Source of the DNA: Chloroflexota bacterium
Lineage (GTDB): Bacteria; Chloroflexota; Dormibacteria; Dormibacterales; Dormibacteraceae
Direction: 5' to 3'
DNA: 24,741 bases
Assembly: GCA_005880175.1 (NCBI GenBank)
Contig: VBJR01000238.1
Coordinates: 1 to 24,741, forward strand
The stretch's first letter is position 1. Every line of letters starts with the position of its first letter. The position numbers and the translations under genes are program-made. Shown piece after piece: positions 6,908 through 24,741 of this stretch. The notes below the pieces were generated by a model. It was given only the letters and a program-made list of their open reading frames with translations, was not told where the DNA came from and did not search any database.

Positions 6908-8257
6908 TCAGTCGTTGGCCGGGCGCAGGTACAGCGTCCGCCCGCCGCCCAGGTCGATCACCTCGGGGAAGCGCTCGCCGGCCCACGCCCGGAAGCCGGG
7001 CAGCAGGGCGAGCCGGCCGCTGGCCAGCAGCACCGCCGTGACGTCCGGCCGGTCCGCGGCCGCCTCGACCGCGTCCACGCCGAGGTCGCCCGACTGGACG
7101 CGGACGAACGAGGTGTCCACCAGCTCCGGCGGCACGTCGCGGCCGGCCAGCGCGACCGCGAACTGGTCGTCCGTGATCACCAGGTCGCCGGGCGCCGTTC
7201 GGGCCCGCAGCGCCGCCACGACCGGCGCGTCCACCGCCGGCGCCTGCTGCCGCGCGCGCACCAGCGCCGCCGGCACCAGCGAGGCGACGACCGCCACCAG
7301 GCACGCCGCGGCGGTGACCCGGTCGGGCAGGGCGCGCGCCAGGCCGCCGGCCAGCAGCGCCAGGGGGACGGTGACGGCCACGGCGTGGTGCGGCCACAGC
7401 GGGTGCTGGACGGCCAGCAGCAGCGCCGCGGCGGCGGTCCAGACCCCGCCGACGGCCGCCAGCAGCGGAGCCCGCCGCGCCGCGACCAGGCCACCGGCGA
7501 CGCCGAGCACCGCGATGGGCACCTCGCGCGTCACCGTCTGGGCGTCGAGGCCGCCCGCCGCCAGCGAGCGGGCCCCGAGGTGCAGGGTCACGACCTGCCG
7601 CCACAGCTCGGGCCAGGCCGGCGCGAACGGCAGCAGCAGGGCGGCGGCGACCACGACGCCGCCGGCCGCGGCGCTCGCCACGCGGAGCGGCGCGCGCGTG
7701 CCGGGAGCCGGCGCCAGCAGGAGCACCAGCAGAGCGGGCGCGGCGGCGGCGGCCAGCAGCTTGGTCAGGACGGCGAGGACGAGAACCCCGCCGGCCGCGG
7801 CGTCGAGCGGCGGGGCGGCCCGGTGGCGCCCCTCCGCCGCGGCGGCGAGGGCGACCAGCGCCAGCGCCACCGACGGCCCGTCGGCCTGCAGCGTGACGGA
7901 CTGCCGGAAGAACAGCGGATCGGCGGCCAGGACCGCCGCTGCCAGCAGGCCGGCCCAGCGCCCGGCCAGCAGGCCCGCCGTCCGGCCGGCGGCCGCGATC
8001 CCGGCCAGCGCCAGGACGAGGACGGTCAGGCGGTCCGCCACGATCCCGCCGCCCGACACGAGGTGCCCGGGCAGCAGGAGCACCAGGAACGCGGGCGGCT
8101 GCGAGCTGTAGACCGACGTGAACAGCGCCTTGCCGGCGGCCAGGGCGCGCAGCGACTGCCAGTAGACGCCCTCGTCGTAGTCGATCTGGCCGCCGCCCAG
8201 GAGGGGCGCGCGCAGCGCGAGGGCCGCAGCCAGGACCAGAAGCAGCCCAACTGGCAT
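6908..8257 (-). CDS. GT39/ArnT-like integral membrane glycosyltransferase
   Basis: This polytopic membrane protein has 449 residues and about ten hydrophobic helices over its first ~350 residues. The first helix (about 3-20) is followed by the external loop motif QIDYDEGVYWQ with acidic pair Asp28-Glu29. A second conserved loop reads YSSQPPAF. This layout matches the GT-C fold dolichyl-phosphate-mannose protein mannosyltransferase/ArnT superfamily (PMT_2), which moves a sugar from a polyprenyl-phosphate donor to a lipid or protein on the outer face of the membrane. The C-terminal ~100 residues are soluble (ALRARTAPGDLVITDDQF onward), as is common in the family. The ATG at 8257 was chosen because it directly precedes helix 1. 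No strong ribosome-binding site is visible. The acceptor is unknown, and pairing with a TcuA-like flavoprotein downstream is unusual. Confidence 0.8.
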   Translation of the reverse strand: MPVGLLLVLAAALALRAPLLGGGQIDYDEGVYWQSLRALAAGKALFTSVYSSQPPAFLVLLLPGHLVSGGGIVADRLTVLVLALAGIAAAGRTAGLLAGRWAGLLAAAVLAADPLFFRQSVTLQADGPSVALALVALAAAAEGRHRAAPPLDAAAGGVLVLAVLTKLLAAAAAPALLVLLLAPAPGTRAPLRVASAAAGGVVVAAALLLPFAPAWPELWRQVVTLHLGARSLAAGGLDAQTVTREVPIAVLGVAGGLVAARRAPLLAAVGGVWTAAAALLLAVQHPLWPHHAVAVTVPLALLAGGLARALPDRVTAAACLVAVVASLVPAALVRARQQAPAVDAPVVAALRARTAPGDLVITDDQFAVALAGRDVPPELVDTSFVRVQSGDLGVDAVEAAADRPDVTAVLLASGRLALLPGFRAWAGERFPEVIDLGGGRTLYLRPAND

Positions 8258-8339
8258 GCTAGTGCGGCAGAGGAGCGAGTACGATCGAGCCTGGGACCTC
8301 ACGCGAGCGCCTAACTTTCTCATGTCGAAGGGAGCGACG
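8258..8339. promoter_or_regulatory. Divergent promoter region between the GT39-like gene and pcaH
   Basis: These 82 bp carry the start signals of pcaH and probably its promoter. AAGGGAG at 8328-8334 is the pcaH ribosome-binding site. TAACTT at 8312-8317 is the only -10-like hexamer in a suitable place, but no good -35 is seen 17 bases upstream. I see no clear inverted repeat for a PcaR/PcaQ-type regulator here. Confidence 0.35.
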
Positions 8340-9035
8340 ATGAGCACGAACCCCGAACCGACCGATTTCGACCCGCCGTACCTGCACCCGGACTACCGGT
8401 CGACCGTCCTCCGGGCGCCCGGCCGGGCGCCGGTCCAGCTGCCCGACGAGTGGTTCCACCGCCTGTCGGGGCCGGTCTTCGGCCGGGTGCGGATCGGCCC
8501 GACCGACCACGACCTGACCGTCCAGCACGCGGGCGAGCCGATCGGCGAGCGCATGATCGTGACCGGCCGCGTCCTCGACAGCGACGGCCGGCCGGTGCCG
8601 GACACGCTGGTCGAAGTCTGGCAGGCCAACGCCGCCGGCCGGTACGTGGACCCGGGCGACGACCACCCCGCGCCGCTCGACCCCAACTTCACCGGGGCGG
8701 GCCGCTGCCTGACCGACTCCGAGGGCCGCTACCGGTTCCTGACCGTCAAGCCGGGCGCGTACCCGTGGCGGAACCACCCCAACGCGTGGCGGCCGGCGCA
8801 CATCCACTTCTCGCTGTTCGGTCCCGAGCTGAGCAGCCGCCTGGTCACCCAGATGTACTTCCCGGGCGACCCGCTGATGGCCCACGACCCCATCCTGCGG
8901 TCCATCGCCGACCCGCGCGGCCGGGAGCGGCTGGTCGCCCGCTTCGACCTGGACACCACCGAGCCCGAGTGGGCGCTGGGCTACCAGTGGGACATCGTGC
9001 TGCGGGGCCGCAACGCCACCCCGATGGAGGCGTAG
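8340..9035 (+). CDS. pcaH: Protocatechuate 3,4-dioxygenase beta subunit
   Basis: This is the catalytic iron-bearing subunit of the intradiol ring-cleaving enzyme, which converts protocatechuate and O2 to 3-carboxy-cis,cis-muconate in the beta-ketoadipate pathway. It has 231 residues. The ATG at 8340 has AAGGGAG five bases upstream; an in-frame ATG at 8322 lacks one. The family's Fe(III) ligands can all be placed: Tyr102 in NAAGRY, Tyr141 in GAYPWRNHP, His154 and His156 in RPAHIHFS. Arg151 matches the conserved active-site Arg. Their spacing (Tyr to Arg 10, to first His 13, to second His 15) equals that of the Pseudomonas beta subunit. It is the first gene of a four-gene operon, and pcaG starts four bases after its stop. 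Confidence 0.96.
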   Translation: MSTNPEPTDFDPPYLHPDYRSTVLRAPGRAPVQLPDEWFHRLSGPVFGRVRIGPTDHDLTVQHAGEPIGERMIVTGRVLDSDGRPVPDTLVEVWQANAAGRYVDPGDDHPAPLDPNFTGAGRCLTDSEGRYRFLTVKPGAYPWRNHPNAWRPAHIHFSLFGPELSSRLVTQMYFPGDPLMAHDPILRSIADPRGRERLVARFDLDTTEPEWALGYQWDIVLRGRNATPMEA

Positions 9036-9039
9036 GCGG

Positions 9040-9525
9040 ATGAGCCTGGTCCCGACGCCGTCGCAGACCGTGGGCCCGTTCTTCGGCTTCGCGCTGCCGT
9101 TCGCGGACGACCAGTCCGCGGTGGCCGCCGACAGCCCGGGGGCCGTGCGCATCGAGGGGCAGCTCGTGGACGGGGCCGGCGCGCCGGTGCCCGACGGGCT
9201 CCTGGAGGCGTGGCAGGGGGACCAGTTCGCGCGCTCGGGCACGGACCCGGAGGGCATGTTCCACTTCGTGGTCCGCAAGCCGGCGGCCGGGCCCGACGGT
9301 GAGGCCCCGCACCTGCACGTGACGGTCTTCGCCCGCGGGCTGCTGCGGCACCTGACCACGCGGCTCTACTTCCCGGACGAGGCCGAGGCCAACGCGGCCG
9401 ACCCGGTGCTCCAGCTCGTCGACGCCGACCGGCGGCCCACGCTGGTCGCCCGCGACGACGGCGGCGTGCTGCGCTGGGACGTCCACCTCCAGGGCGACGG
9501 GGAAACGGTCTTCTTTGCCGTCTGA
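9040..9525 (+). CDS. pcaG: Protocatechuate 3,4-dioxygenase alpha subunit, internally shortened
   Basis: This is the partner subunit of PcaH in the alpha/beta dioxygenase. It has 161 residues, against about 185-200 in known alpha subunits. The start MSLVPTPSQTVGPFFGFAL and the end RWDVHLQGDGETVFF are typical. The missing part is internal. In relatives the strand ending EVWQ or ETWQ is followed by a loop of roughly 18-23 residues (ADPDGR-type) before F-x-R-x-x-T-D. Here the sequence goes straight from EAWQ to GDQFARSGTD (residues 59-68), so about 16-20 residues are absent with the frame kept. That loop shapes the alpha/beta active-site cleft, so activity may be affected. Alternatively the block was lost in sequencing. 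Its stop overlaps the pcaB start by 11 bp. Confidence 0.93.
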   Translation: MSLVPTPSQTVGPFFGFALPFADDQSAVAADSPGAVRIEGQLVDGAGAPVPDGLLEAWQGDQFARSGTDPEGMFHFVVRKPAAGPDGEAPHLHVTVFARGLLRHLTTRLYFPDEAEANAADPVLQLVDADRRPTLVARDDGGVLRWDVHLQGDGETVFFAV

Positions 9526-10861
9526 CCGGCTCTTCGGGCCCACCCTCACCATCCCGGCGATGGCGGAGGCGGTGTCCGACGAGTCGTGGCTGCGCGCGAT
9601 GCTGGACGTCGAGGCGGCGCTGGCGGCGGCCGAGGCGGGCGCGGGCGTCATCCCGGCCGACGCGGCGGCGGCGATCGCCGTCGCCTGTGCCGAGGTCCGG
9701 ATCGACCTGGCCCGCCTGGGCGAGGACGCGGCCGCGTCGGCCACCCCGGTCGTGCCGCTGGCCCGGGCCCTGACGGCGGCCGTCCCGGGCGCCGCCGCCA
9801 ACTACGTGCACTGGGGGGCCACGAGCCAGGACGTGATCGACACGGCGATGATGCTGGTGTCGCGCCGGGCGCTCGGCGTGCTGCTGGCCGAGCTGGGCGG
9901 GCTGGCCGCCGCCTGCGCGGGCCTCGCCGACCGCCATCGTGCGACCCTGATGCCGGGCCGCACGCTGATGCAGCAGGCGCTGCCGATCACGTTCGGGCTC
10001 AAGGCGGCGGGCTGGCTGGTGGCGGTGCTCGAGGCGGGCGACCTGGCGCGGGCGGCCCGCGCGCGCCTGGCCGTGCAGCTCGGGGGCGCCAGCGGCACGC
10101 TGGCCTCGCTGGGCGACCGCGGCCTGGACGTGCTGACCGGCCTGGCCGCCGAGCTGGACCTGGCGGAGCCGGTCCTGCCCTGGCACGTGGCCCGGGGCCG
10201 GATCGTCGAGCTGGCGCTGGCCCTGGCGGCGGCGGGCGGCGCCGCCGCGAAGATCGCGCTGGACGTGCTCCTGCTCACGCAGACGGAGGTGGCCGAGGTG
10301 GCGGAGGGCGCGCCGGGCGGCTCGTCCGCGATGCCCCAGAAGCGCAACCCGGTGGGGGCGATCGAGGCCGACGCGTGCTTCCGCGGGCTCCAGGCGCAGG
10401 TGGCCGTGCTCGTCGCCTCGCAGCGCGTCGAGCACGAGCGGGCGGCCGGCGCCTGGCAGGCGGAGTGGCCGGCGCTGACCGAGGCCTTCCGGCTGGCCGG
10501 CGGCGCGTGCGGCAGGGCCCGGGCCGTGGTCGAGGGGCTGCGCGTCGACCCGGACCGGATGCGGGCCAACCTGGACGTGAGCGGCGGGCTGATGCTGGCC
10601 GAGCACGTGTCGATGGTCCTGGCGGCGAAGGTCGGGCGATCGGCCGCGCAGCGGGCGGTGCGGGCGGCGGCGGGCCGGGTGGCGGATGGCGGGCGGCGGT
10701 TCCGCGACGAGCTGCTGGCGGAGCCGGAGGTGGCCGCGCACCTGACGCCGGCCGAGGTGGACGCGGCGCTGGACCCGGCCGGCTACCTGGGATCGGCGCC
10801 GCGGCTGGTCGAGCGGGCGCTGGCGGCGTATCGGGAGCGGACGAGGAGTGCGAGCACATGA
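9515..10861 (+). CDS. pcaB: 3-carboxy-cis,cis-muconate cycloisomerase
   Basis: This is the second enzyme of the protocatechuate branch, which lactonises 3-carboxy-cis,cis-muconate to gamma-carboxymuconolactone. It belongs to the fumarase/aspartase superfamily. At 448 residues it is full length. The TTG at 9515 is chosen because it restores the usual N-terminus (DRLFGPTLTIPAMAEAVSDE), and GGGGAAA lies upstream; an ATG at 9560 would remove conserved residues. Superfamily signatures are WGATSQDVIDTA and the signature loop GGSSAMPQKRNPV. The C-terminal CMLE-type helical domain runs from about 360. It overlaps pcaG by 11 bp and pcaC by 4 bp (ATGA), which indicates translational coupling. Confidence 0.95.
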   Translation: MPSDRLFGPTLTIPAMAEAVSDESWLRAMLDVEAALAAAEAGAGVIPADAAAAIAVACAEVRIDLARLGEDAAASATPVVPLARALTAAVPGAAANYVHWGATSQDVIDTAMMLVSRRALGVLLAELGGLAAACAGLADRHRATLMPGRTLMQQALPITFGLKAAGWLVAVLEAGDLARAARARLAVQLGGASGTLASLGDRGLDVLTGLAAELDLAEPVLPWHVARGRIVELALALAAAGGAAAKIALDVLLLTQTEVAEVAEGAPGGSSAMPQKRNPVGAIEADACFRGLQAQVAVLVASQRVEHERAAGAWQAEWPALTEAFRLAGGACGRARAVVEGLRVDPDRMRANLDVSGGLMLAEHVSMVLAAKVGRSAAQRAVRAAAGRVADGGRRFRDELLAEPEVAAHLTPAEVDAALDPAGYLGSAPRLVERALAAYRERTRSAST

Positions 10862-11226
10862 CCGACGACAGGTACGAGCGGGGGATGGCGGTCCGGCGCG
10901 CGGTCCTCGGCGACGCGCACGTCGACCGGGCGGAGGCCAGGCGCAGCCCGCTGACGTCCGACTTCCAGGACTACATCACGCGCTGCGCGTGGGGCGAGGT
11001 CTGGACCCGGCCCGGCCTGGACCGCCGCACCCGCAGCTGCATCACGGTGGCGATGCTGGTCGCGCTCAACCGCGGCGAGGAGCTGGCCATGCACCTGCGC
11101 GCGGCGCTGACCAACGGCGTCACCGTGGACGAGCTGAAGGAGGTCCTGCTGCAGACGGCCGTGTACGCGGGCGTCCCGGCCGCGAACACGGCGTTCCGGA
11201 TCGCCAGCGAGGTGCTCGAGGGCTGA
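10858..11226 (+). CDS. pcaC: 4-carboxymuconolactone decarboxylase
   Basis: This is the third enzyme of the branch. It decarboxylates gamma-carboxymuconolactone to beta-ketoadipate enol-lactone. At 122 residues it is complete and stand-alone, not fused to PcaD as in some actinomycetes. Typical features are RYERGMAVRRAVLGDAHVDRA at the N-terminus, the block WGEVWTRPGLDRRTRSCITVAML, and the CMD helix pair around EELAMHLRAALTNGVT and LLQTAVYAGVPAANTAF. The ATG overlaps the pcaB stop (ATGA). No pcaD, pcaIJ or pcaF follows, so the enol-lactone must be processed by enzymes encoded elsewhere. Confidence 0.95.
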   Translation: MTDDRYERGMAVRRAVLGDAHVDRAEARRSPLTSDFQDYITRCAWGEVWTRPGLDRRTRSCITVAMLVALNRGEELAMHLRAALTNGVTVDELKEVLLQTAVYAGVPAANTAFRIASEVLEG

Positions 11227-11263: not shown

Positions 11264-12594
11264 TCAGAGCGACGCGAACAGGTTGTTCAGCGACTCCGCC
11301 AGCGTCGGGTGGGCGAACACCCCGTCGCGCAGGGCGGTGTACGGCAGGCGGCCCATCATCGCGACCTGGAGCGCCGCCATCAGCTCGCCGCCCTCGATGC
11401 CCAGCACCGCGCAGCCCAGGATCTGCCCGGTTCCGGCGTCCACCACCGCCTTCATGAAGCCCCGCGGCTCGCCCACCTCCAGGGCCCGCGCCACGTGGCT
11501 CATCGGCATCTTCGCGACCCGGACGTCGCGGCCGGCCGCGACGGCCTCGGCCTCGCTCAGGCCCACCCGGCCCAGCTGCGGGTCGATGAACACCGTGTAC
11601 GGCACCAGCCGGCCGGTCGTGGTCGCGCTGCCGCCCTCCAGCAGGTTGGCCCACAGGATGCGGAAGTCGTCGTACGAGATGTGGGTGAACGCCGGGCCGC
11701 CGTTGACGTCCCCGATCGCGTAGATCCCCGGCACGTTCGTCCGCAGCCGCTCGTCCACCCGCACGTAGCCGCGCCGGTCGGTCGCGACGCCGGCCGCCTC
11801 CAGGCCCAGCCCGTCCGTGTTGGGCCGGCGGCCCGCCGCGACCAGCAGGTGGCTCCCCTCCAGCGCGCGCGTCTCGCCGCCCACGCGCACCTCCAGGCGC
11901 ACGCCGCCCGGCGCCGGATGCCGGCCACCGCGTCCGCGACGTCGGCGTCCTCCCTGGCCAGCAGGGCCGGCCCCCGCTGCACGACCGTGACCCGGGCGCC
12001 GAAGCGGCGGAACATCTGCCCGAACTCGAGGCCCACGTTGCCGCCGCCCAGCACCAGCAGGTGCTCCGGCACCACGTCCAGCTCCATGATCGACGTCGAG
12101 TCCAGCGCCGGCACCGCGTCCAGGCCCGGGACCGGCGGGGACGCCGGCCGGCAGCCCGCGTTGATCACGATCGTGCCGGCCTGGAGCACCCGGCGGCCGC
12201 CGTCCCGCAGGTCCACCGCGACCGTGTCCGGGCCCGTCAGCTCGCCCTCGCCCATCAGCAGCTCGACGTGCGCGTTCGCCAGCCGGCGTTCGCCGCCGCC
12301 GCGGAAGCTGTCCACGATGTCCCGCTTGCGCTGCCGGACGCGCGTCATGTCCACCGCGACGTCGCCCGTGCGGACGCCGTAGTCCGCGCCCCGCCGGGCC
12401 AGGTACGCCACCCGGCCGCTCGCCACCATCGTCTTCGTGGGCGTGCACCCCTCGTTGATGCAGGTGCCACCCACGTGCTGGCGCTCGACCATCGCCACGC
12501 GCCGGCCGGCGTTCGCCAGCGCGGTGGCCAGCGGGTTGCCGCCCTGGCCCGAGCCGATCACTACCGCGTCGTAGCGGCTGGTCTCAGTGGTCAT
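11264..12594 (-). pseudogene. Mercuric-reductase/Lpd-like pyridine nucleotide-disulfide oxidoreductase, broken by an internal loss and frameshift
   Basis: Two frames together make one class I flavoprotein disulfide reductase. The N-terminal part (12594 to about 11915) has FAD motif VVIGSGQGG, the redox-active pair in [13 protein letters not shown] (Cys45, Cys50) and the NAD(P) motif [14 protein letters not shown]. The C-terminal part, in another frame (about 11920 to 11264), has [19 protein letters not shown], the FAD motif [16 protein letters not shown] and the dimerisation end [17 protein letters not shown]. Between AVAGI and [10 protein letters not shown] relatives carry about 20-25 residues that are missing here, so this is not a single-base slip. 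AAGGAGA before the ATG at 12594 is a good ribosome-binding site. It starts nine bases after the winged-helix gene. Either a pseudogene or a sequence error; all catalytic motifs survive. Confidence 0.85.
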
Positions 12595-12603
12595 GGTTCT
12601 CCT

Positions 12604-13788
12604 TCAGCCGCTCAGCTCGCGCTCCAGCGGCGACGCCCCCCGCCCGCGCGGAGCCAGCGCGGCGGTGCCGATCCACGCGCTCAGCCGCGCCGCCTCCGCC
12701 TCGACGGCGCGGGTCGCCTCCGCGCCGACGTCCTCCAGCAGCCGGAACGCCACCTCGCCGTCGGGCCGCCGCGCCCAGGCGCCGGCGACGCGACCGTCGC
12801 ACCAGACCGTCGGCCCGGCGTTCCCCGTCCCGTCGAACAGCAGCTTGCCGTGCTCGCCCAGGAACCAGCCCCGCCCGATCCAGCCCATCACGGTCGGGTC
12901 GAGCGCCGGCAGCAGCCGGACCCACGGCGCCGGTGCCGGCACCGGGTCGACGTCGTCGCCCAGCACGAAGCCCGGGCCCTCGTCCAGCTCGACCTCGACC
13001 GCCCCGACGTCGCGGAGCGCCCGCGTCACGTCGCGGGCGGCCCAGCCGGTCCACCAGCGGACGTCCGCCGCCGTGCCGGGGCCGTACGCGCGCAGCCAGC
13101 GGCGCACGAGCTCGGCCCGCGCCGCCTCGGCCGCCACCTCCTCGACGCCGTCCGGCAGCCACGCCTCCATCGGCGACCACTTGAACTGGGTGCTGACCCA
13201 GGAGCCGCGCGGCCGCCCGCGCACGATCCGCTCGTCCGCCGAGAGCAGGAACAGCACGCGGGTGGTGAGGTTGAGCATGCCCTCGTACTTCTTGCCTTCG
13301 TTCATCAGGATCTGCGTGCGCAGCTCGGGCACCTCGGCCGAGACGTCCGCGCCGTAGACCTCGCCGCGCTCCCTGACGACGCGCAGGGTGGCCTCCTCGA
13401 CCCGGCGCAGCCAGGCGTCCGCGTCGGCGATGCCCCCGAAGTCGCGCAGCGTCTTCGCGAGCAGCCGGCGCTGGTCGGCGGCGATGGCACGCGTGCACGC
13501 GGCGTGCACGACCGCGACCAGCTCGCGCCGGACGACGAAGATCGTCCGGCGCATGCCCAGGATCCGCACCAGCGTCCGCTCCTCGTAGAGCGCCCGCTCG
13601 ACCGCCGCCGCGTCCGGCTCGCGCAGGCGGGCGGCGGCGGACAGGTAGACCGTGGCCGGGTCCGTCGAGTGCAGCGCGACGAGGGCGTCCGCGACGTCGA
13701 TCGCGGCGCCGGCGCGGGCCTCGCAGGCGAGCAGGTGGCGGACTCCCAGGCGCGCCCGACGTTCCTCGACCCCGATGCGACGCGACAT
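12604..13788 (-). CDS. AlkZ-like winged-helix DNA-binding protein (HTH_42 family)
   Basis: The protein has 394 residues and belongs to the HTH_42/YcaQ-AlkZ superfamily of winged-helix proteins, some of which are DNA glycosylases that unhook interstrand crosslinks or bulky adducts. Family landmarks are the N-terminal VALHSTDPATVYLSAAARL, LGMRRTIFVV, the central WSPMEAW segment, and the C-terminal LLPALDPTVMGWIGRGWFLG then GNAGPTVWCDGRVAG. In characterised glycosylases the catalytic motif is Q-x-Q or Q-x-D at the place where this protein has His40-Ser41-Thr42, so repair activity cannot be assumed. I recall the HxT form as common in actinobacterial members. The start ATG 13788 is only 26 bp from the divergent hydrolase start. 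TACGTT just upstream suits a -10 box for a leaderless message. Confidence 0.82.
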   Translation of the reverse strand: MSRRIGVEERRARLGVRHLLACEARAGAAIDVADALVALHSTDPATVYLSAAARLREPDAAAVERALYEERTLVRILGMRRTIFVVRRELVAVVHAACTRAIAADQRRLLAKTLRDFGGIADADAWLRRVEEATLRVVRERGEVYGADVSAEVPELRTQILMNEGKKYEGMLNLTTRVLFLLSADERIVRGRPRGSWVSTQFKWSPMEAWLPDGVEEVAAEAARAELVRRWLRAYGPGTAADVRWWTGWAARDVTRALRDVGAVEVELDEGPGFVLGDDVDPVPAPAPWVRLLPALDPTVMGWIGRGWFLGEHGKLLFDGTGNAGPTVWCDGRVAGAWARRPDGEVAFRLLEDVGAEATRAVEAEAARLSAWIGTAALAPRGRGASPLERELSG

Positions 13789-13814: not shown

Positions 13815-15667
13815 ATGTCCGTCGAGCTGGTGGTCACCCGCCGCCGCCCCTACGAGTCAGGCCGCGCGTTCGGGCCCGCCGGCGCGTACGAGCGGCTGGA
13901 CGGGGTCGCGCGCTTCGCCGTCGATCCCGCCGCGCCCGCCAACGCGGCGATCACGGACCTGCGCCTGGCCCCGGCCGACGCGGCCGGGCGAGTCCGGTTC
14001 GAGGCCGACTTCGTGGTCCTCCGGCCCGCCGACCCGGCGCGCGGCCAGCGCCGCCTGCTGTTCCAGGTGGTCAACCGCGGCCGCCAGGCGGCGCTGCCGT
14101 TCAGCGCGATGAGCGCGCCGCCCGCGCTCGAGATCAGCGAGCGCATCGAGGCGGGCGACGGGTTCCTGCTCGGACGGGGCTGGACGGTCGCGTGGTGCGG
14201 GTGGCAGTGGGACGTGGTCCGGCGGCCGGGGATGCTCGGGCTCGCGGCGCCCGAGGCGGACCTGCCCGAGGGCGACCGCGACGGGCAGGTCCTCGTCTCG
14301 TTCCAGCCCCACCGGCGGGAGACGCACCACGGCCTGTGGCACTGGCCGCTTGACCCGCCCCCAGGCGCGTCCGACGTGGCGCACACGCCGTACCGGCCGG
14401 CCGACCCCGATGACCCCGCCGCCGTCCTGACGGTGCGCGACCGCCCGCTCGGGCCCGCCGCCGAGGTGCCCCGCGCGCAGTGGCGCTTCGCCCGCGACGA
14501 GAGCGGCAGGGTGGTCCGCACGAGTGCCCGGTCGTGGGCGCGGGGCTGCTCGCCGTCCGCGACTTCGTGGCCTGCCTGCGGCACGGGCCGGACGGCCCGG
14601 CCGGGCCGCTGGACCACGCGTTCGCGTTCGGCGTGTCCCAGAGCGGCCGGTTCCTGCGCGAGTTCCTGTACCACGGGCTCAACGTGGACGAGGCCGGCCG
14701 GCCGGTGTTCGACGCCGTCATCCCGCACGTCGCGGGAGCGCGCCGGGGCGAGTTCAACCAGCGCTACGGCCAGCCGTCGGTCCAGCACGCGCCGAGCCTG
14801 GGCCACCTGCCCCCGTTCACGGACGCCGAGCTCCTGCGGCGCCAGCGGGAGCTCGGCGGGGTGCCCCGCGTGTTCACGATCAACACGTCGTCCGAGTACT
14901 GGCGGAGCGAGGCGTCGCTGCTGCACATCGTGGACGGCGCGGACGTGGCGCCGCCGGCCGAGGTCCGCACGTACCTGTTCGCCGGCTGCCAGCACGGGCC
15001 CGGCGTCCTCCCGCCCGCCCGGATCCCGGCGATGTCGCCGTGGGTGCGGCCGGCCAACCGGCTCAACACGGTGGACTACACGCCGCTGCTGCGGGCGGCC
15101 CTGGTCAACCTGGAGCGGTGGGTCGTCGACGGCGTCGAGCCGCCGCCGGACGCGGTGCCGCGGCTGTCGGACGGCACCGCCGCCGACCGCGAGGGGGTGC
15201 TGGGGCTGTTCGCGGCGGCGGACGTGGACGCCGACCTGCCCCGGCCCGAGGGGCTGCCCGCCCTGCGCCACCTCGACCTCGGCGACCGGGTCGGCGAGGG
15301 CGTCGTGCGCCTCCCCGCGGTGGCGGGCGAGCCGTACCCGTGCCTGGTCAGCGCGCTGGACGCCGACCTCAACGAGGCGGCCGGCATCCGGCTGCCCGAC
15401 CTCACCGTGCCCGTGGCGGTGCAGACGGGGTGGAACCCGCGCCGGCCGGAGTCCGGCGGCGCGGGCCAGACGGTGGACATGCTGGGCTCGAGCATCCCGC
15501 TGGCCGGCGCGAGCGTCCCCGAGCGGTACGGCGACCGCGACCGCTACTGCTCGCTCGTGCGGGCGGAGGCGGAGCGGCTGGTCGAGGCGCGGCACCTGCT
15601 GGCGGAGGACGTCGAGCGCGTGGTGGCGCGGGCGGCCGCCGCCTACGACGCGTACGCCGCCGACTGA
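13815..15667 (+). pseudogene. Alpha/beta hydrolase (Abhydrolase_10 type), broken by an internal loss and frameshift
   Basis: Two frames together make one protein of about 616 residues. The first (13815 to about 14519) starts MSVELVVTRRRPYESGR and carries AYERLDGVARFAVDP and GWTVAWCGWQWDV, the N-terminal blocks of a family of large actinobacterial and proteobacterial hydrolases. The second (from about 14522) starts ECPVVGAGLLAVRDFVACL and contains the nucleophile elbow GVSQSGRFLREFLYHG, then FNQRYGQPS and INTSSEYW. In relatives some 30 residues, ending in an E-V/L-V-Y segment, join these two parts; here RVVR runs straight into CPVVG. A pure one- or two-base slip would not explain that gap. The substrate is unknown. 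It could be a pseudogene or a sequencing/assembly loss at about 14517-14524. Confidence 0.85.
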
Positions 15668-17414: not shown

Positions 17415-18602
17415 TCAAGGCGTGCACGGACCGTCGTCGGTCCACACGCCGGCCGAGCCGCCGGGTGTGTCGCCCTGCGTCCACCACTTGGCCGTCCAGT
17501 TGTGGCCGCCGAACGAGGCCATGTCGCCGCCCACGAAGATCGCCGTGCTGCTCCAGGGCGCGACGCACTTGCCCGAGTTCAGCGGCGGCGGCGGGGCCGG
17601 CGGCGTGGTCGGCGTCGCCTTCGCGAACTGGACCGTGAACGCGGTGAAGTCCCACGCGTTCTGCGTCACCGTGCTGCACTCGCTGGACGTGGTGCTGATG
17701 GGCGGGTTGCACGGGCGGTCGCGGTTGACCGACCAGAACGTGTAGCGCGACATCCCGTTGGACGTGGCGAAGCTGAGCACCGACTGGAAGTCGCTCTGCG
17801 AGAAGATCTCCGCCGAGTCGGTGCGCCCGTTCATCGACGACACGCCCTCGTGCTGCCAGGCCGCGGCGCCGCTCCAGCCGAACGTTGTCGTCAGCTGCGA
17901 GTGAAGGCCCTGCAGCGCGGAGACCTGGCTGCTGGCGCCGCTGAAGCCGCCGTCGAACGACATGATCGAGTAGTCGGCCGGCACGAAGCCCAGGCTCTTG
18001 GCCTCGTTCAGCAGCTGCTGGCCGAACCAGTTGGCGCCGCTCGTCGTGGCCGGGATCGTGACGGTCACGAGCAGGCCCGGATTGTTCTGCTGCAGGATCT
18101 GCGCGGCCCCCAGCTCGTTGGCGATGGCCGTCGCGTTCTCGATCTCGGGCTCCTCCAGGTCGAAGTCGATCGCGTGGAGGCCGTACGCGCTGATCGCGCC
18201 CTGGTACGCGGTGGCGGTGGCGGCCGCGCCCGAGCAGGTCTGGCCGAGCTTGGTGCCGCCGAACCCGCCGGCCGACACCGACACGTCGCCGCCGGCGGCC
18301 CGCACCGCCGCGATGATGGGCCCGACCTGCGTGTCGGAGGCCACCGGGTCGGTGCCGTCCCACGTTGCGGTGCAGCCGCCGCCGTTGGGCGCCAGGATGA
18401 ACGCCATCTCGAACGCCTTCTGGCCGGTCGCCGCCATCACCTGCGTCAGGTTGGGCGCGCCCGGGTCGAGCGTCAGGTAGTACGGCGCCGACTCGTACCA
18501 GTTGGCGGTGAGCGGTCCGGCGGCGGCCGCCGAGCCGCGGCCGGTGAGGCCGATCAGCGCGCCTGCCGCCAGGCAGGCGAGCACACGGAACAAGCGGTTC
18601 AT
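17415..18602 (-). CDS. Secreted GH18 chitinase with C-terminal chitin-binding domain
   Basis: The protein has 395 residues. A Sec signal peptide covers about 1-28 ([19 protein letters not shown], ending in SAAAA-G), so the enzyme is exported. The catalytic GH18 domain (about 30-325) shows [10 protein letters not shown] for the S-x-G-G strand and IDFDLEEPE with Asp146, Asp148 and catalytic Glu150 (the D-x-D-x-E motif). A Pro/Thr linker ([11 protein letters not shown]) leads to a carbohydrate-binding module of the CBM5/12 type: [19 protein letters not shown] then [13 protein letters not shown]. It should cut chitin from fungi or arthropods outside the cell. The ATG at 18602 has GGGGGAGAG directly upstream. 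The promoter and an operator-like palindrome are listed separately. Confidence 0.92.
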
Positions 18603-18632
18603 CTCTCCCCCTTTGCGACCGCCGATCAAATT

Positions 18633-18730: not shown

Positions 18731-19099
18731 ATGACCGAGACTCGCACGCCCGTGAAGGTGCTCTACACGGCCGAGGCGACGGCCACGGGTGGCCGGGCCG
18801 GCCACGCCGAGAGCTCTGACGGAAGGCTGAAGGTGGACCTGTCCATGCCCGCGGAGATGGGCGGCGACGCGGGCGCCGGCACGAACCCCGAGCAGCTCTT
18901 CGCCGCCGGCTATGCCGCCTGCTTCCAGGGCGCGATGGGCGTGGTGGCCCGGCGCGAGAAGCTGTCCATCGAGGGTTCCACGGTCACGGCCCGGGTGGGC
19001 ATCGGCCCGATGGGCCAGGCGTTCGCGAAGGCGCACCAGGTGTGCCCGTACTCGAACGCGACCCGCGACAACGTCGACGTGACGCTGACGGTCGTGTAG
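18731..19099 (+). CDS. Ohr-type organic hydroperoxide resistance protein (OsmC family), internally shortened
   Basis: This is a thiol peroxidase that reduces organic hydroperoxides using dihydrolipoamide. It has 122 residues against about 140 in the family. The start [19 protein letters not shown] and the core [15 protein letters not shown] are typical. Reactive Cys64, resolving Cys105 (VCPYSNATR), Arg22 and Glu54 are all present. The strand-helix segment that normally separates G-x-G-P from [12 protein letters not shown] (about 20-25 residues) is absent: GIGPMGQ passes directly to AFAKAHQV (about 91-104), with the frame kept. Loss of that strand should harm the fold, so either the gene is inactive or the sequence has lost a block. 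The ATG at 18731 has GGGGGGAGA upstream. No OhrR-type repressor is adjacent, although a MarR gene lies 1.3 kb away. Confidence 0.9.
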
Positions 19100-19107
19100 C
19101 ACCGTAC

Positions 19108-19139
19108 CCCCGGCGGTGGGCCGGACCCCACCGCCGGGG
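19108..19139. terminator. Strong bidirectional hairpin between the Ohr and SBP genes
   Basis: CCCCGGCGGTGGG (19108-19120) pairs perfectly with 19127-19139 around a six-base loop, a 13-bp stem of nearly pure G/C. It lies eight bases after the Ohr stop and ten bases beyond the end of the convergent binding-protein gene, so it can serve both. There is no T-run, as is usual for actinobacterial terminators. Confidence 0.85.
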
Positions 19140-19149
19140 ACCTGGCGTG

Positions 19150-20736
19150 TCACGCGGGGCGGGCGTGGACGGTGTCGAAGGACTCCGTGGGGTTGGAGCG
19201 CACGTCGACCACGCGGGACGAGTAGACGATCGGGAACTTCTCGGTCCACAGGAAGATCCACGGCGCGTCGTTCCAGACCTGGCGCTGGGCGTCGCAGTAC
19301 TCCTGCGCGCGCGCCTCGCGATCGGGCTCGACCTGCGCCTTCGCGAGCAGGGCCGTGACGGCCGGGTTGCCGTAGTACGCGGTCTGGACGCCGCGCGGCG
19401 GGATCTGGCCCGGGTCGAACATCTGCATCGCGTTGCTGGCGTCGAGGTACTGCGGCGCCCAGCCGAGCATGTGCATGTCCACGGTGGCGTTCTCGGGCGG
19501 CACGATCGTCGTCCGCACGTACGTCGGCCAGTCCATCGTCGCCGGACCCCTGACGTCAACGCCGATCGCCCGCAGGTCGCCGGCGACGTTCTGGGCCGCC
19601 GGGAAGTCCTGGATGTAGCGGCCGGTCGGCGCGATCAGCGTGACGGTCAGGCCGGCCGCGCCCGCGGTCCGGAGCATCGCCCGGGCCCGATCCGGGTCGT
19701 AGCGGTAGGGGTCGGACTGTGCGCAGTAACCCACGACGCTGGGCGCCATCGCCGACGTGGCCGGCTCCGCGGCGCCGACCAGCGTGCTCTGCACGATCGC
19801 GTCGCGGTTGATCGCGAAGTTCAGCGCCTGCCGGACCTGCACCTTCCGGAGCAGCGGCTGCCGGTCGTCGCGGGTGTCGATCGCGAAGAACACCGAGCGG
19901 TCGCCGGCCGCCATCAGCAGCTTCACGTTGCTGTCGCGGCGCATGGCGGGCAGGTCGCCGACCGGCGGCATCAGGGCGACCTGGTCCTCGCCGGACCGGA
20001 CCAGCGCCTCCCGCGTGGCGGCGTCGGGCACGACGTCCACCACCTGCCGTGCGTAGTACGGCCGCTCGTCCCAGTAGCCGTCGTTGCGCACCAGGGTGAT
20101 GTGGTCGCCGGTCACCCGCTCCTGAAGGACATACGGCCCGGTGCCCACCGGGTGCTCCTGCAGCGAGTATCCCGGCGTGCCCGCCAGGATCGTCCGGGGC
20201 GACAGGATCCCGAAGGCGGTCAGGCTCAGCAGCCCGAGGACCACGTCGGAGGCGAGCGGGATCGCCATCACCAGCCGCACATGGCTCGCGTCCACGGCCT
20301 CGACGCGCTGGACAGCGCCCGGCAGCGCGCCGCACTCCGCGCAGGTCCCTGAGGGATCGAGCGACCGGGTGAGGCTGCCCGCGACGGCCGCCGCGTCCAT
20401 CGGCGTGCCGTCCGAGAACCGCACGCCGCCCCGCAGCGTGAAGGTCCAGCTCAGGCCGCCCGGCGCCTCGTCCCAACCTGTCGCCAGGCTGGGCTGCACG
20501 TGACCGTCCTGATCGACGCGGGCCAACGACTCCACGACCATCTGGACGACGTTCATCACCGTCGTGGTCGTCTGGCGCTTCGGGTCCAGCGTATCCGGGT
20601 CCACGCCGATCGCGATGCGCAGCACCGGGCTGCCTGCCGCCGCGGCCAGCGCCCGGCCCGGCCCCACGCTGCCGCACGCGACGAGCGGGACGCTCGCCGA
20701 TGCCAGCAGGGCCAGCACCCAGCCCGCTCGCCTCAT
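19150..20736 (-). CDS. OppA/DppA-type extracellular solute-binding lipoprotein (SBP family 5)
   Basis: The protein has 528 residues. The N-terminus is a lipoprotein signal: MRRAGWVLALLASASVPLVAC-G, with lipobox L-V-A-C and lipidated Cys at about 21, so it is anchored outside the membrane. The mature part follows family-5 order: LRIAIGVDPDTLDP, VQPSLATGWDEAP, WTFTLRGGVRFSDGTPMDAAAV, HPVGTGPYVL, VRQALNFAINRDAI and a late Trp/Asp-rich region. Such proteins bind oligopeptides, dipeptides, nickel or sugars for ABC uptake. No permease or ATPase gene is next to it. Instead it is the last gene of the sigma/zinc-finger-FHA operon; its ATG overlaps the FHA stop (ATGA). A sensing role for the lipoprotein is therefore possible. 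The hairpin at 19108-19139 ends the operon. Confidence 0.92.
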   Translation of the reverse strand: MRRAGWVLALLASASVPLVACGSVGPGRALAAAAGSPVLRIAIGVDPDTLDPKRQTTTTVMNVVQMVVESLARVDQDGHVQPSLATGWDEAPGGLSWTFTLRGGVRFSDGTPMDAAAVAGSLTRSLDPSGTCAECGALPGAVQRVEAVDASHVRLVMAIPLASDVVLGLLSLTAFGILSPRTILAGTPGYSLQEHPVGTGPYVLQERVTGDHITLVRNDGYWDERPYYARQVVDVVPDAATREALVRSGEDQVALMPPVGDLPAMRRDSNVKLLMAAGDRSVFFAIDTRDDRQPLLRKVQVRQALNFAINRDAIVQSTLVGAAEPATSAMAPSVVGYCAQSDPYRYDPDRARAMLRTAGAAGLTVTLIAPTGRYIQDFPAAQNVAGDLRAIGVDVRGPATMDWPTYVRTTIVPPENATVDMHMLGWAPQYLDASNAMQMFDPGQIPPRGVQTAYYGNPAVTALLAKAQVEPDREARAQEYCDAQRQVWNDAPWIFLWTEKFPIVYSSRVVDVRSNPTESFDTVHARPA

Positions 20737-21611
20737 GCCAGCAGCTCCTGCTCGAGCAGCGCGAGCATGTTGGTCAGCCGCTCGTACACCATCGGCAGCG
20801 CGTCCGGGCCGGCGCCCTGGCTGGCGATGGACGAGAGCTCGTCGCGCAGCTGCACCGTCTCCTCCCGGAGGCCGCCGAGGCGCGCCCGCAGCTCGTCGCT
20901 CTGGCGCTCGCTCCCCGGCGGCGCGGGCTCCTGCCGGGCCGCTCCCGAGAGAAAGCGCCGCACCTCGCGGGCGATGCCGGCGGGGTCCAGCGCCGGGAGC
21001 AGCGTGCGGACCACCAGCCGCGCGTGGTTCCCGATCTCGATCTCGTCCCCCGGCCGCAGGTTCGCCGGCTGCGTGTTGCCCACCCGCGCGCCGTTGACCC
21101 GGGTCCCGTTGGTGGACTCCAGGTCGCGCAGGGTCCACCGCTCGCCGCGCCAGTCGAGCTGGGCGTGCCGGCGCGACGCCGAACGGTCCCAGACCGACAC
21201 GTCCACGTCCGGGGCCCGGCCGACCACGATCGGGTAGCGGGCGACGACGACGAAGCGCTCCACCGGCCGCGAGCGGGGCGTGTACGGGTAGCGGTCGGCC
21301 TCGACCGCCAGCACCAGCGGCGACACCCGGCCGCCCCGGTTCGGCGACCGCGGCTCGGGGACAGTCGGCCACAGCACCTCGATGCGGCCGGTCGCGGCCC
21401 GCGGGTCGTCGGACCAGAGGATGCGCCGCAGCAGCTCCGGCCGCGGCTCCGGCACGTCGGCGATCATGCGGTCGAGCTCGTCCAGCCGCGCCGCCAGCGG
21501 GCCGCAGACGGCGCACGTGGCGACGTGCTGGCCCAGCCACGAGGCGCGCTCGCCCTCGAGCAGCAGCTGCCGGGCGCGGTCGTGCTGTTCCAGGAACTCC
21601 CGCAGGTCCAT
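20733..21611 (-). CDS. Zinc-finger anti-sigma-like protein with FHA domain
   Basis: The protein has 292 residues and no membrane segment. The first ~45 residues look like a zinc-binding anti-sigma (ZAS) domain: a helix with His10, then His29-x3-Cys33-x2-Cys36 (QHVATCAVC). Residues about 118-205 are a forkhead-associated domain: IVVGRAPDVDVSV, the phosphothreonine-binding DRSASRRHAQL, and DLESTNGTRVNG with LRPGDEIEIG. A charged segment predicted to form a coiled coil follows (SDELRARLGGLREETVQLRDEL, shown here only in part of its length, about 240-262). ZAS domains hold ECF sigma factors inactive and FHA domains read Thr-phosphorylated partners, so this may be a kinase-controlled anti-sigma factor; that is inference. 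The ATG at 21611 overlaps the sigma stop (TGATG) and has GGAGG eight bases upstream. Confidence 0.87.
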   Translation of the reverse strand: MDLREFLEQHDRARQLLLEGERASWLGQHVATCAVCGPLAARLDELDRMIADVPEPRPELLRRILWSDDPRAATGRIEVLWPTVPEPRSPNRGGRVSPLVLAVEADRYPYTPRSRPVERFVVVARYPIVVGRAPDVDVSVWDRSASRRHAQLDWRGERWTLRDLESTNGTRVNGARVGNTQPANLRPGDEIEIGNHARLVVRTLLPALDPAGIAREVRRFLSGAARQEPAPPGSERQSDELRARLGGLREETVQLRDELSSIASQGAGPDALPMVYERLTNMLALLEQELLA

Positions 21612-22189
21612 CACCGGCTCCTCCCGCCATAGGCATCCAGTTCGCGAACCATTCGCGCCCGGGCACGCGCCCGCCGCGACCTGACCGTGGTGGCCGCGAC
21701 GCCGAGCATCTGGCCCAGCTCCTCCGACGTGTAGCCGACCGCCGTGCCCAGCACGACCTCGCGCTCCTCGTCGTCCAGCGAGGCCAGGGCCCGCTCCAGG
21801 TCGATGTGCCTGACCCAGCGGTCCTCCGCGGGCGCGGCGGCCCCGGCGCCCGGCTCGTGCCCGTCCTCGATCGGCAGCTCGCGGGCCAGGCGGCCGCGGC
21901 GGCGCAGCTCGTCGAACGCCTGGTGCCGGCAGATCGTGAGGATCCACCCGCACAGCGCCCCCTGCCCCCGGTACTCCGCCAGCCGCTCCTGGATCACCAG
22001 GAACGTCTCCTGCGTGACCTCCTCCGCTCCCTGCTGATCCCGGACGATTCGCCTGCTCAGGCTCCAGACCGACTTCCAGTGCCGGTCGACGATCGCCTCC
22101 CAGGCCGCCGCGTCGCCCGCGAGCGCCCGAGCCGCCAGCGGGCCGTCGCAGTCCTCTCCCGCCCCGGGGTCCAACGCGTGGTTGTCCAT
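21611..22189 (-). CDS. ECF-type RNA polymerase sigma factor
   Basis: This is a sigma-70 family factor of 192 residues. Region 2 covers about 20-95: DRHWKSVWSLSRRIVRD, then QGAEEVTQETFLVIQERLAEYRG and CGWILTICRHQAFDELRRR, the usual 2.1-2.4 pattern. A variable linker rich in Gly/Ala/Pro follows. Region 4 (about 130-185) has LASLDDEEREVVLGTAVGYTSEEL and the helix-turn-helix LGVAATTVRSRRARARARM. There is no extra C-terminal domain. The ATG at 22189 has GGGGGAGG directly upstream. It is the first gene of a coupled three-gene operon with the ZAS-FHA protein, its probable anti-sigma, and a binding lipoprotein. A possible ECF-type promoter upstream has poor spacing. An inverted repeat lies at 22269-22297. 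Confidence 0.93.
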   Translation of the reverse strand: MDNHALDPGAGEDCDGPLAARALAGDAAAWEAIVDRHWKSVWSLSRRIVRDQQGAEEVTQETFLVIQERLAEYRGQGALCGWILTICRHQAFDELRRRGRLARELPIEDGHEPGAGAAAPAEDRWVRHIDLERALASLDDEEREVVLGTAVGYTSEELGQMLGVAATTVRSRRARARARMVRELDAYGGRSR

Positions 22190-22268: not shown

Positions 22269-22297
22269 AACGACGAGGTCGCGGCAACTTCGTCGTT
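22269..22297. promoter_or_regulatory. Inverted repeat between the sigma operon and the DUF4062 gene
   Basis: AACGACGA (22269-22276) and TCGTCGTT (22290-22297) are perfect 8-base inverted arms with a 13-base spacer. Their starts are 21 bases apart, two DNA turns, so both would face the same side of the helix. The repeat sits in the 137-bp divergent region between the sigma gene (ATG 22189) and the DUF4062 gene (ATG 22327) and could control either. Confidence 0.5.
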
Positions 22298-22326: not shown

Positions 22327-22896
22327 ATGAGCACCGGAAGGCGGCGCCGAACCCCTCCCGCGGACGCACCCTGGCGCGTGTTCCTCAGCCACACGTCGGA
22401 CCTGCGCGAGCACCCCGCCCGCCGCCCGTTCGCGGCGGCGGCCGAGGCGGCCGTGGTCCGCGCCGGGCACGCGGTGAGCGACATGGCCTACTTCGCGGCC
22501 GGCGACGCCGACTGCGCCGACCACTGCGCCCGGATGGTGGCGCGCTCGGACGTGTACGTCGGCCTGGTCGGCGGACGCTACGGCTCGCCCGCGCGGGGCC
22601 GGCCGGACCTGTCCTACACCGAGCTGGAGTTCGAGATCGCCTCCGCGCTGCGGCTGCCGCGGCTGATCTTCCTCATCCGCGAGGACGCGCCCGCCCTGCC
22701 CCCCGCCGTCCAGTCGGCCGAGCGGCGCGCCCGCCAGGCCGCGTTCCGGCGGCGCGTGCAGGCGTCGGGCCTGATGGTCGCCCGCGTCCGCTGGCCGGTC
22801 GAGCTCGAGCTCGGCCTGCTGCACGCCCTGGGCGAGCTGCGCGTCCACGCGTGCATGGGGACGAGACCGAGCTTCCGGCCCCGCGAGATCGCCTGA
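22327..22896 (+). CDS. Stand-alone DUF4062 domain protein
   Basis: The protein has 189 residues, nearly all DUF4062: RVFLSHTSDLREHP at the start, [14 protein letters not shown] helix (FAAAAEAAVVRAGHAVSDM), SDVYVGLVGGRYGSP, then LSYTELEFEIASALRLPRLIFLI, and a closing helical part. This Rossmann-like domain resembles TIR and nucleoside-deoxyribosyltransferase folds. It is usually the N-terminus of large STAND/NB-ARC or TPR proteins tied to defence or signalling. Here it stands alone. The ATG at 22327 has CAGGAA 5-10 bases before it. It is divergent from the sigma operon and 14 bp ahead of a nitroreductase gene, which may be co-transcribed. No effector or NTPase domain is present, so its role is unknown. 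Confidence 0.85.
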   Translation: MSTGRRRRTPPADAPWRVFLSHTSDLREHPARRPFAAAAEAAVVRAGHAVSDMAYFAAGDADCADHCARMVARSDVYVGLVGGRYGSPARGRPDLSYTELEFEIASALRLPRLIFLIREDAPALPPAVQSAERRARQAAFRRRVQASGLMVARVRWPVELELGLLHALGELRVHACMGTRPSFRPREIA

Positions 22897-23434: not shown

Positions 23435-24741
23435 TCAGTCCCCCGGCCCGGAGCGGGCCGCCGCGATCACCGGCTCGGCCGCCGGCTGCCCGCACCAGCG
23501 GTCCAGCGCGGCCGCCAGCGCCGACGGCCGTCGCTCGGCCGCCGCCCGGTCCGCCGCCCACGCCACGTACCCGTCGGGCCGCACGAGCATCAGCGGCCGG
23601 TCCGCCGCGGCGGCGACGACCGTGCCGGCGCGGTCGGACCACGGCCGGGCCACGTCCGCCCAGCCGGCCGCCGGCGCGACCAGCACGAACCGCTGGCTCC
23701 GCAGCGCCTCGTACAGCCGGCCGCCCTCCAGCGCGACGTCGGGCGCGCGACGGCCGGTCAGGGGATGGGCGCCGCGCTCCGCCGGGTACGCGATCCCGAG
23801 TCCCGAGATCGTGTCCGCCGCGCGGGCGGTCACCGGCCCGAGCCGGAACGCCACGGACCCGGCGGCGTTGCGGATCGCCCGGAGCGGCGCCGCGCCGATG
23901 ATGCCGGCGCGGAGCATGCCGCCGCTGGTCCGGAGCACGGCCCGGCCGACCGGGTGGCGCTCGGCCTGGTAGCTGTCGAGCAGGTCCGGCGGCGCCCAGC
24001 CGTGGACTGCCGCGGCCACCTTCCAGCCCAGGTTCGCCGAGTCCTGCAGGCCCGCGTTCATGCCCATGCCGCCGGCCGGCGAGTGCACGTGGGCGGCGTC
24101 GCCGGCCAGGAAGACGCGGCCGGCGCGGTACTGCGCGACCTGGCGCTCGTCGCTGTGGAAGCGGGACATCCAGCGGGCGTCGTGCATCCCGTAGTCGGTG
24201 CCCCGCGTGCGGCGGACGATGTCGCGGACCTCGTCGAGCGTGACGGGCGCGTCGTCGGGGAGCTGGCGGCGCCGGTCCCAGGCGATGATCCGGTACCACC
24301 CGTCCCCGAACGGCGCCACGAACGACAGGCCGGCTCGGGTGCTGCTGACGGTGAGGAGCTCGTCCGGCGGCTCCGCGAACCGGACGTCGGCCAGCATGAC
24401 GGAGCGGAGCACCGAGCGGCCCGGGAACGGCATGCCGAGCGCCGTGCGGATCGCGCTCCGGACCCCGTCCGCGCCGATGACGAAGGCGGCCCGCCGCGTG
24501 TCGGTCGCGCCGTCGCGGGTGCGGACGTCCACGTCCACCCCATCGGCGTCCTGGCGCAGGCCGGTGACCTCCGCCCCGCGCACCACCTCGGCGCCGAGCG
24601 CGGCCGCCCGCTCCTCCAGCACCTGCTCGGTGTGGTACTGCGGGACCACGAGCAGGAACGGGAACCGGGTGGGCAGCCGGGACAGGTCGAGGCGGAGCCG
24701 GCCGAAGATCTGGATCGCGTCCAGCGGCTGGCCGCGGCGCA
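23435..24741 (-). CDS. FAD-dependent aromatic monooxygenase (PheA/TfdB type), 5' end beyond the window
   Basis: The frame is open through the right edge, so the N-terminal FAD motif (G-x-G-x-x-G) lies outside and the true start is not visible. An internal GTG near 24649 should not be taken as the start, because family sequence (RRGQPLDAIQIFGRL, RFPFLLVVPQY) continues upstream. About 435 residues are seen. VIGADGVRSAIRTALGMPFPG is the D-G motif, and GRVFLAGDAAHVHSPAGG (then MNAGLQDSANLGWKVA) is the second FAD motif of the PHBH group. After about 290 a thioredoxin-like C-terminal domain follows (HPLTGRRAPDVAL, RFVLVAPAAGW, LVRPDGYVAWAAD), as in phenol hydroxylase-type and polyketide-tailoring oxygenases. 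The substrate is probably a phenolic or polycyclic aromatic, by family only. Confidence 0.9.
   Translation of the reverse strand, partial: RRGQPLDAIQIFGRLRLDLSRLPTRFPFLLVVPQYHTEQVLEERAAALGAEVVRGAEVTGLRQDADGVDVDVRTRDGATDTRRAAFVIGADGVRSAIRTALGMPFPGRSVLRSVMLADVRFAEPPDELLTVSSTRAGLSFVAPFGDGWYRIIAWDRRRQLPDDAPVTLDEVRDIVRRTRGTDYGMHDARWMSRFHSDERQVAQYRAGRVFLAGDAAHVHSPAGGMGMNAGLQDSANLGWKVAAAVHGWAPPDLLDSYQAERHPVGRAVLRTSGGMLRAGIIGAAPLRAIRNAAGSVAFRLGPVTARAADTISGLGIAYPAERGAHPLTGRRAPDVALEGGRLYEALRSQRFVLVAPAAGWADVARPWSDRAGTVVAAAADRPLMLVRPDGYVAWAADRAAAERRPSALAAALDRWCGQPAAEPVIAAARSGPGD

Follow-up and report, generated by a model that had tools for sequence, protein, structure and literature searches.

The class I anti-sigma domain, as described in the available sections of PMC7406223, consists of a three-helix bundle, which is placed on sigma4 and carries an HxxxCxxC motif spanning its second and third helices, and of a linked fourth helix, which is placed on sigma2. 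In the accessible part of PMC4601284, phosphorylation of the anti-sigma factor RshA by the kinase PknB is placed near helix 4 and disturbs the binding of RshA to SigH. Extracytoplasmic function (ECF) sigma factors that are activated by kinases, of the ECF43/EcfP and ECF59 types, lack the acidic DAED motif according to the available sections of PMC8103513 and PMC8999054. Here, we analysed a stretch of 24,741 nucleotides (the window) from contig VBJR01000238.1 of a Dormibacteraceae genome (Chloroflexota, assembly GCA_005880175.1), in which three minus-strand genes joined stop-to-start encode, in this order, an ECF sigma factor, a protein here called ZAS-FHA, which combines a putative zinc anti-sigma domain with a forkhead-associated (FHA) domain, and an SBP_bac_5 lipoprotein. 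We consider it probable, with some reserve, that the sigma factor is held inactive by the soluble class I (zinc) anti-sigma domain, and that its release is gated by the binding of phosphothreonine at the attached FHA domain. The features of the operon are as follows.

21611..22189, minus strand: ECF sigma factor of 192 amino acids with sigma2 and sigma4 domains (Pfam PF04542 and PF08281) and the acidic core-binding motif AEE at residues 55-57
20733..21611, minus strand: ZAS-FHA, a soluble protein of 292 amino acids with an N-terminal zinc anti-sigma-type domain, an FHA domain and C-terminal helices (Pfam PF00498, family of 45, AlphaFold2 models)
21405..21611, minus strand: anti-sigma-type domain of ZAS-FHA, residues 1-69, with helices 3-19, 26-32, 36-51 and 58-66 and candidate zinc ligands H10, H29, C33 and C36 (AlphaFold2 model, profile comparison)
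20994..21329, minus strand: FHA domain, residues 95-206, with GarA and OdhI as the closest solved folds (Pfam, structural comparison)
20841..20867, minus strand: invariant tail motif REETVQLRD, residues 249-257, with Thr252 as candidate phosphoacceptor (conserved in 25 of 25 long forms)
19150..20736, minus strand: SBP_bac_5 lipoprotein of 528 amino acids with lipobox LVAC (PF00496, YliB as best PDB match, tree)

The sigma gene ends in TGATG, the ATG of which is the start codon of the ZAS-FHA gene, while the junction between the ZAS-FHA and lipoprotein genes reads ATGA, and each of the three starts is preceded by a ribosome-binding site that looks plausible by eye. The sigma protein contains sigma2 and sigma4 domains only, with Pfam matches to region 2 (E 2.3e-11) and region 4 (E 5.6e-9) that are both above the cut-off, and it also scores above the cut-off of TIGR02937 (sigma70-ECF). 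In 41 of the 44 family sequences, including that of the window, both position 56 and position 57 are acidic.

Among the best 120 of 1380 matches to ZAS-FHA, 44 relatives score at least 218 bits and the next match falls to 83 bits. The resulting alignment contains 45 sequences, two of which have gaps at H10, C33 and C36 and no homologous N-terminus. The window protein contains the motif His29-x3-Cys33-x2-Cys36, with His10, not named in the first-pass annotation, as a fourth candidate zinc ligand. H10, C33 and C36 are conserved in all 43 rows that have a residue there, and H29 in 44 of 44, one of which (P0038) has a non-homologous N-terminus. The complete HxxxCxxC motif is present in 43 of the 45 sequences, the other two being those without a homologous N-terminus, and its cysteines are the only ones in near-invariant columns of the family. 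In the AlphaFold2 model of the isolated N-terminus (mean predicted local distance difference test score 86), the four helices listed above form an anti-sigma-like layout, which is near-identical in the full-length model; as predicted secondary structure, it corresponds to a three-helix bundle with a fourth helix. A profile of the N-terminus compared by hhalign with 11 zf-HC2 domains gave a probability of 94% and a score of 40.0 (78.5% and 34.2 in an earlier run with a different option). Shuffling the columns 200 times gave scores no higher than 23.6, and the reversed alignment scored 20.7. An ECF-sigma-like open reading frame (ORF) is present, not necessarily adjacent, at 10 of the 11 zf-HC2 reference loci. 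VIA-align 2 on the N-domain gave nothing useful. No family row contains a strong hydrophobic segment; the highest hydropathy over 19 residues is 1.58 across the family and 1.02 in the window protein, values that make a membrane-bound anti-sigma factor unlikely. From sequence and model, we take the N-terminus to be a probable, divergent zinc anti-sigma domain.

The HxxxCxxC motif is absent from all 76 listed FHA matches outside the family, and no second family of the same architecture was found among them. Nine of the ten organism names shown for members of the operon-protein families are Candidatus Dormibacteraeota or Dormibacteraceae, and one is Candidatus Eisenbacteria. A scan of genome contigs returned a single locus, a match to the FHA region (44% over residues 127-197) in a metagenome-assembled genome of the Verrucomicrobiaceae; a scan of viral contigs found no relative, and a plasmid search gave partial matches only (six records, none covering 80%).

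The FHA domain is matched by Pfam over residues 128-194 (E 6.5e-21), and its core residues GR, SRRH and TNG are invariant in all 45 rows. The family falls into long forms, defined by at least 30 residues after position 234 (25 of 45 rows), and short forms, which have 0 to 5 residues there (20 rows, of which P0020 is possibly a fragment). E251, T252, V253 and L255 are each present in 25 of 25 long forms (E-T-V-x-L), and two shortened tails that stop shortly behind the motif still retain it. Acidic residues before a threonine and a hydrophobic residue three positions after it suit both Hanks kinases and FHA domains, and Thr252 is, from its sequence context, a candidate phosphosite. The first-pass annotation of this DNA had described the stop-to-start overlaps, the zinc motif and a complete FHA domain (GR, SxxRRH, NG), and had proposed a regulatory sigma/anti-sigma unit with an FHA input. 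The coordinates and overlaps were confirmed, the motif and the domain recur across the family, and the proposed unit gains support from these, from the four-helix model and from the retained acidic motif of the sigma factor.

To describe how the three genes are distributed among relatives, clusters were counted as linked when their longest contigs were equal in size, a proxy in which gene order is not seen. The counts are based on the best 120 of 1502 matches to the solute-binding protein (SBP), 120 of 1380 to the FHA protein and 120 of 174 to the sigma factor, so that a protein missing from a list may still be encoded in the genome. Because the matches are ordered by their similarity to the window genes, a linked clade near the window is more likely to be found. 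Rows without a contig size were dropped (1 of 44 family FHA, 2 of 76 other FHA and 2 of 120 SBP). Sigma and ZAS-FHA were found on contigs of the same size in 11 of 43 FHA clusters, a listed SBP in 6 of 43, and all three in 4 of 43, the contigs of the latter being 5,657, 14,136, 21,659 and 278,988 bases long. Chance matches among unrelated FHA proteins amounted to 2 of 74 with a listed SBP and 0 of 74 with a family sigma, and among unrelated sigma factors to 2 of 76 with an SBP and 1 of 76 with a family FHA protein, all on contigs of at most 5,514 bases. Some of the two-gene matches are also on short contigs (3,294 to 5,034 bases) and could include chance. Equal contig sizes suggest that sigma and ZAS-FHA travel together.

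A quick phylogeny of the SBP proteins (LG+G4, 120 rows, one short row of 121 omitted) placed the window SBP, six FHA-linked and one sigma-linked protein in the same clade of 16 rows (Shimodaira-Hasegawa approximate likelihood ratio test 99), the other eight rows of which are themselves unlinked. None of the remaining 104 rows is linked by equal contig size, and some of these are on contigs of 135 to 264 kb. This concentration has a hypergeometric P of 1.5e-8, which becomes 9e-7 when the window and its near copy are left out; both values are descriptive, given that the matches were ordered by similarity to the window. The Thr252 tail is present in 7 of 7 lipoprotein-linked ZAS-FHA proteins, including that of the window, and 0 of 19 short-form clusters have a listed lipoprotein on a contig of the same size. 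On FHA contigs of at least 5 kb, a listed SBP was matched for five of the ten long forms and for none of the seven short forms (hand count; Fisher P 0.04, kinship ignored). The lipoprotein had been assigned to the regulatory unit from the window alone; the assignment is supported in part, by equal contig sizes in one clade, but does not extend to the short forms, for which contigs as long as 197,709 bases match a sigma factor and no listed lipoprotein. Our reading of these sequences is that sigma and ZAS-FHA would form the core, which an SBP paralogue would have joined in one branch. The sequence evidence is good for the parts and moderate for the triad.

In the proposed mechanism, helices 1-3 of ZAS-FHA would hold region 4 of the sigma factor and helix 4 would hold region 2. 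A Hanks-type kinase encoded elsewhere would phosphorylate a threonine, which could belong to a partner protein or, for the long forms, be Thr252 of the tail. By binding the phosphothreonine, the FHA domain would detach the neighbouring helix 4 from the sigma factor, similar to GarA, which switches when it binds a phosphothreonine of its own. The co-transcribed lipoprotein would most likely either be an output of the response or assist it by capturing a ligand. The binding to the sigma factor, the phosphorylation and the part played by the lipoprotein are the steps that we infer.

Several results weigh against this mechanism. Pfam zf-HC2 stays under its cut-off in all six family sequences tried (E about 0.2 in two, no match for the window piece), Foldseek with the isolated N-domain found no solved relative (six matches, best E 4.8), and the gap from H10 to H29 is 18 residues, compared with 24 or 25 from the first Cys to the His in the 11 reference domains. 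Thr252 lies within a predicted helix and may therefore be structural. Scanning 25 ORFs of the window, a set that covers all but a few and includes the three operon genes, gave no match to a protein kinase. Linkage in the relatives is read from equal contig sizes rather than from gene order, and 32 of the 43 FHA clusters have no sigma of the same size among the matches listed.

The role of the lipoprotein is open to another explanation, which we hold to be slightly less than evenly probable, namely that it is an ordinary binding protein of an ATP-binding cassette (ABC) importer, the permease and ATPase of which are encoded elsewhere, and that the sigma operon regulates nutrient capture. The protein is a full SBP_bac_5 protein, with the domain at residues 80-441 (E 7e-72), and its best PDB sequence match is 1uqw, YliB. 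There are also the 104 related proteins outside the linked clade, and many of the relatives (best 120 of 1502) are named peptide/nickel transport system binding proteins. Against this explanation, neither an ABC permease nor an ABC ATPase was matched in the 25 scanned ORFs, as had been noted from the letters, and the linked lipoproteins form a clade of their own, but both observations are still compatible with a distant transporter. The lipobox LVAC of the window protein, with Cys21, is recognised by a script pattern there and in 15 rows of the 16-row clade, while the sixteenth reads SAGC by eye. OppA and DppA have an Asp that anchors the peptide. At position 429, members of the clade have residues other than this Asp (Q in 6 of 16), which marks nothing special because the Asp is likewise absent from the 104 other tree rows, where the residue is mostly G or Q. 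R292 and R297 are specific to the clade, and no role is assigned to them.

It is unlikely, in our view, that the anti-sigma domain senses redox state or zinc, as in RsrA and ChrR, with an FHA domain that merely scaffolds or places the protein and phosphorylation not acting as the switch. According to the available sections of PMC7406223 and PMC8999054, sensing of oxidative conditions is common among soluble zinc anti-sigma factors, and an Ohr-type peroxiredoxin gene adjoins the operon in convergent orientation. However, the near-invariant cysteines are limited to the two of HxxxCxxC, and a mere scaffold is disfavoured because it would not need the invariance of the FHA core in 45 of 45 rows.

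We also doubt that the lipoprotein is an extracellular sensor, the ligand-bound form of which would activate a membrane Ser/Thr kinase that feeds the FHA domain. The stop/start coupling of its gene to that of the regulator, the clade-wise linkage and the Thr252 tail in all seven linked ZAS-FHA proteins would fit such a role, but no kinase was matched among the scanned ORFs and none of the 19 short-form clusters shares its contig size with a listed lipoprotein. Sensing by the lipoprotein would moreover require a membrane protein, and the operon encodes none. A bolder proposal combines both ideas: a GarA-like switch on a zinc anti-sigma factor, in which phosphorylation of Thr252 by a Hanks kinase makes the FHA domain fold back on this residue and release the sigma factor, together with a transporter-free SBP lipoprotein recruited as ligand sensor in the long-form clade. 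We regard this combination as speculative and rather improbable; if true, a single pathway would connect a ligand-binding lipoprotein, a Ser/Thr kinase and ECF sigma signalling. Least credible by far is that the sigma factor is itself phosphorylated by a kinase as in ECF43/EcfP, with ZAS-FHA only a kinase adaptor, since the FHA domain is indeed encoded beside the sigma gene but the acidic core-binding motif that such sigma factors lack is retained here (41 of 44), so that direct kinase activation was set aside and anti-sigma control is the likelier of the two.

Two further features flank the operon.

19107..19140, no strand assigned: strong hairpin between the convergent ohr gene and the operon, a possible bidirectional terminator without T-tract (folding energy -39.5 kcal/mol, minus strand)
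22269..22297, no strand assigned: imperfect palindrome of 29 bases, located between the operon and the DUF4062 gene divergent from it, a possible operator (14-base arms, 86% complementary)

A strong terminator had been reported to close the operon. The hairpin is indeed very strong (z -3.5), but there is no T-tract and the site is missing from the output of the terminator scan; its position between convergent genes and the missing T-tract suggest that it possibly serves both directions. The convergent gene (18734-19099, plus strand) encodes an Ohr-type peroxiredoxin of 121 amino acids, above the cut-off of TIGR03561, and the gene for the DUF4062 protein is at 22327-22896 on the plus strand. 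A promoter scan listed no sigma-70-type promoter, and a look by eye 5' of the sigma gene found no ECF-type promoter at standard spacing.

Elsewhere in the window, a protocatechuate-type pathway cluster (8256-11226, plus strand) contains two dioxygenase subunits, a lyase-family gene that resembles PcaB by eye, and a carboxymuconolactone decarboxylase-family gene. At 11264-12594 on the minus strand, a gene for a pyridine nucleotide-disulphide oxidoreductase is split over two frames, with the N-terminal half at 11557-12594 and the C-terminal half at 11264-12448, which may be due to a frameshift, a pseudogene or an assembly error. An Abhydrolase_10 gene (13815-15667, plus strand) seemingly also occupies two frames: the match of 14480-15667 to the profile begins at profile position 150, and the upstream frame has no Pfam match and reads by eye as the start of the gene. 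Two split genes in one window hint at assembly errors. The window also encodes an AlkZ-like DNA glycosylase family protein (12604-13788, minus strand), a secreted-looking protein with a CBM_5_12 carbohydrate-binding module (17415-18629, minus strand) and, judged by eye alone, a flavin monooxygenase-like protein (23435-24649). The host bacterium is probably from soil.

The operon is a combination of known modules that we did not find described. A full-text literature search, outside which most subscription papers lie and a prior mention is possible, returned no FHA-bearing anti-sigma factor, and its sole match for ECF, anti-sigma and FHA domain together concerns a type VI secretion cluster. The full-text search gave no match for an ECF sigma factor with an anti-sigma factor and a solute-binding protein in its context, or for sigma factors of Dormibacterota, and a term search did not find FHA in two ECF reviews and an anti-sigma classification paper. 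If the proposed mechanism is right, phosphothreonine signalling reaches ECF sigma factors via a reader domain that is part of the anti-sigma factor. The ZAS-FHA system is small and soluble, and its reconstruction in E. coli should be feasible; point mutants of C33, C36, R132, S146 and T252 would give clear yes/no answers there.

Among the described systems, EmbR of Mycobacterium tuberculosis is similar in being an FHA-bearing transcription regulator that takes kinase input (PMC4601284, accessible part), but it is a DNA-binding activator rather than an anti-sigma factor. The SigE-CseA system of Streptomyces coelicolor is an ECF sigma system that also includes a lipoprotein (PMC8999054, available sections). 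However, CseA acts with a two-component system. It is also presumably not an SBP_bac_5 protein. GsiB (YliB) shares with the window lipoprotein the SBP_bac_5 domain, the lipobox and the full length, while the window lipoprotein differs in that no transporter genes were found beside it and in that it is coupled to a sigma/anti-sigma pair. RsrA, ChrR and RshA resemble ZAS-FHA in having an N-terminal helix bundle with HxxxCxxC, a candidate ligand in helix 1, a fourth helix, no membrane segment and coupling to an ECF sigma factor. ZAS-FHA differs from them in its shorter helix-1 spacing, in its score under the Pfam zf-HC2 cut-off and in its C-terminal FHA domain, followed in the long forms by a helical tail, where ChrR has a cupin-like domain. 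GarA and OdhI provide the closest solved folds to the FHA domain. The ETTS motif of GarA is located in an unstructured N-terminal extension, whereas the threonine of ZAS-FHA is C-terminal and in a predicted helix, and while GarA and OdhI target metabolic enzymes, the proposed target of ZAS-FHA, for which the switch is a candidate, is a sigma factor.

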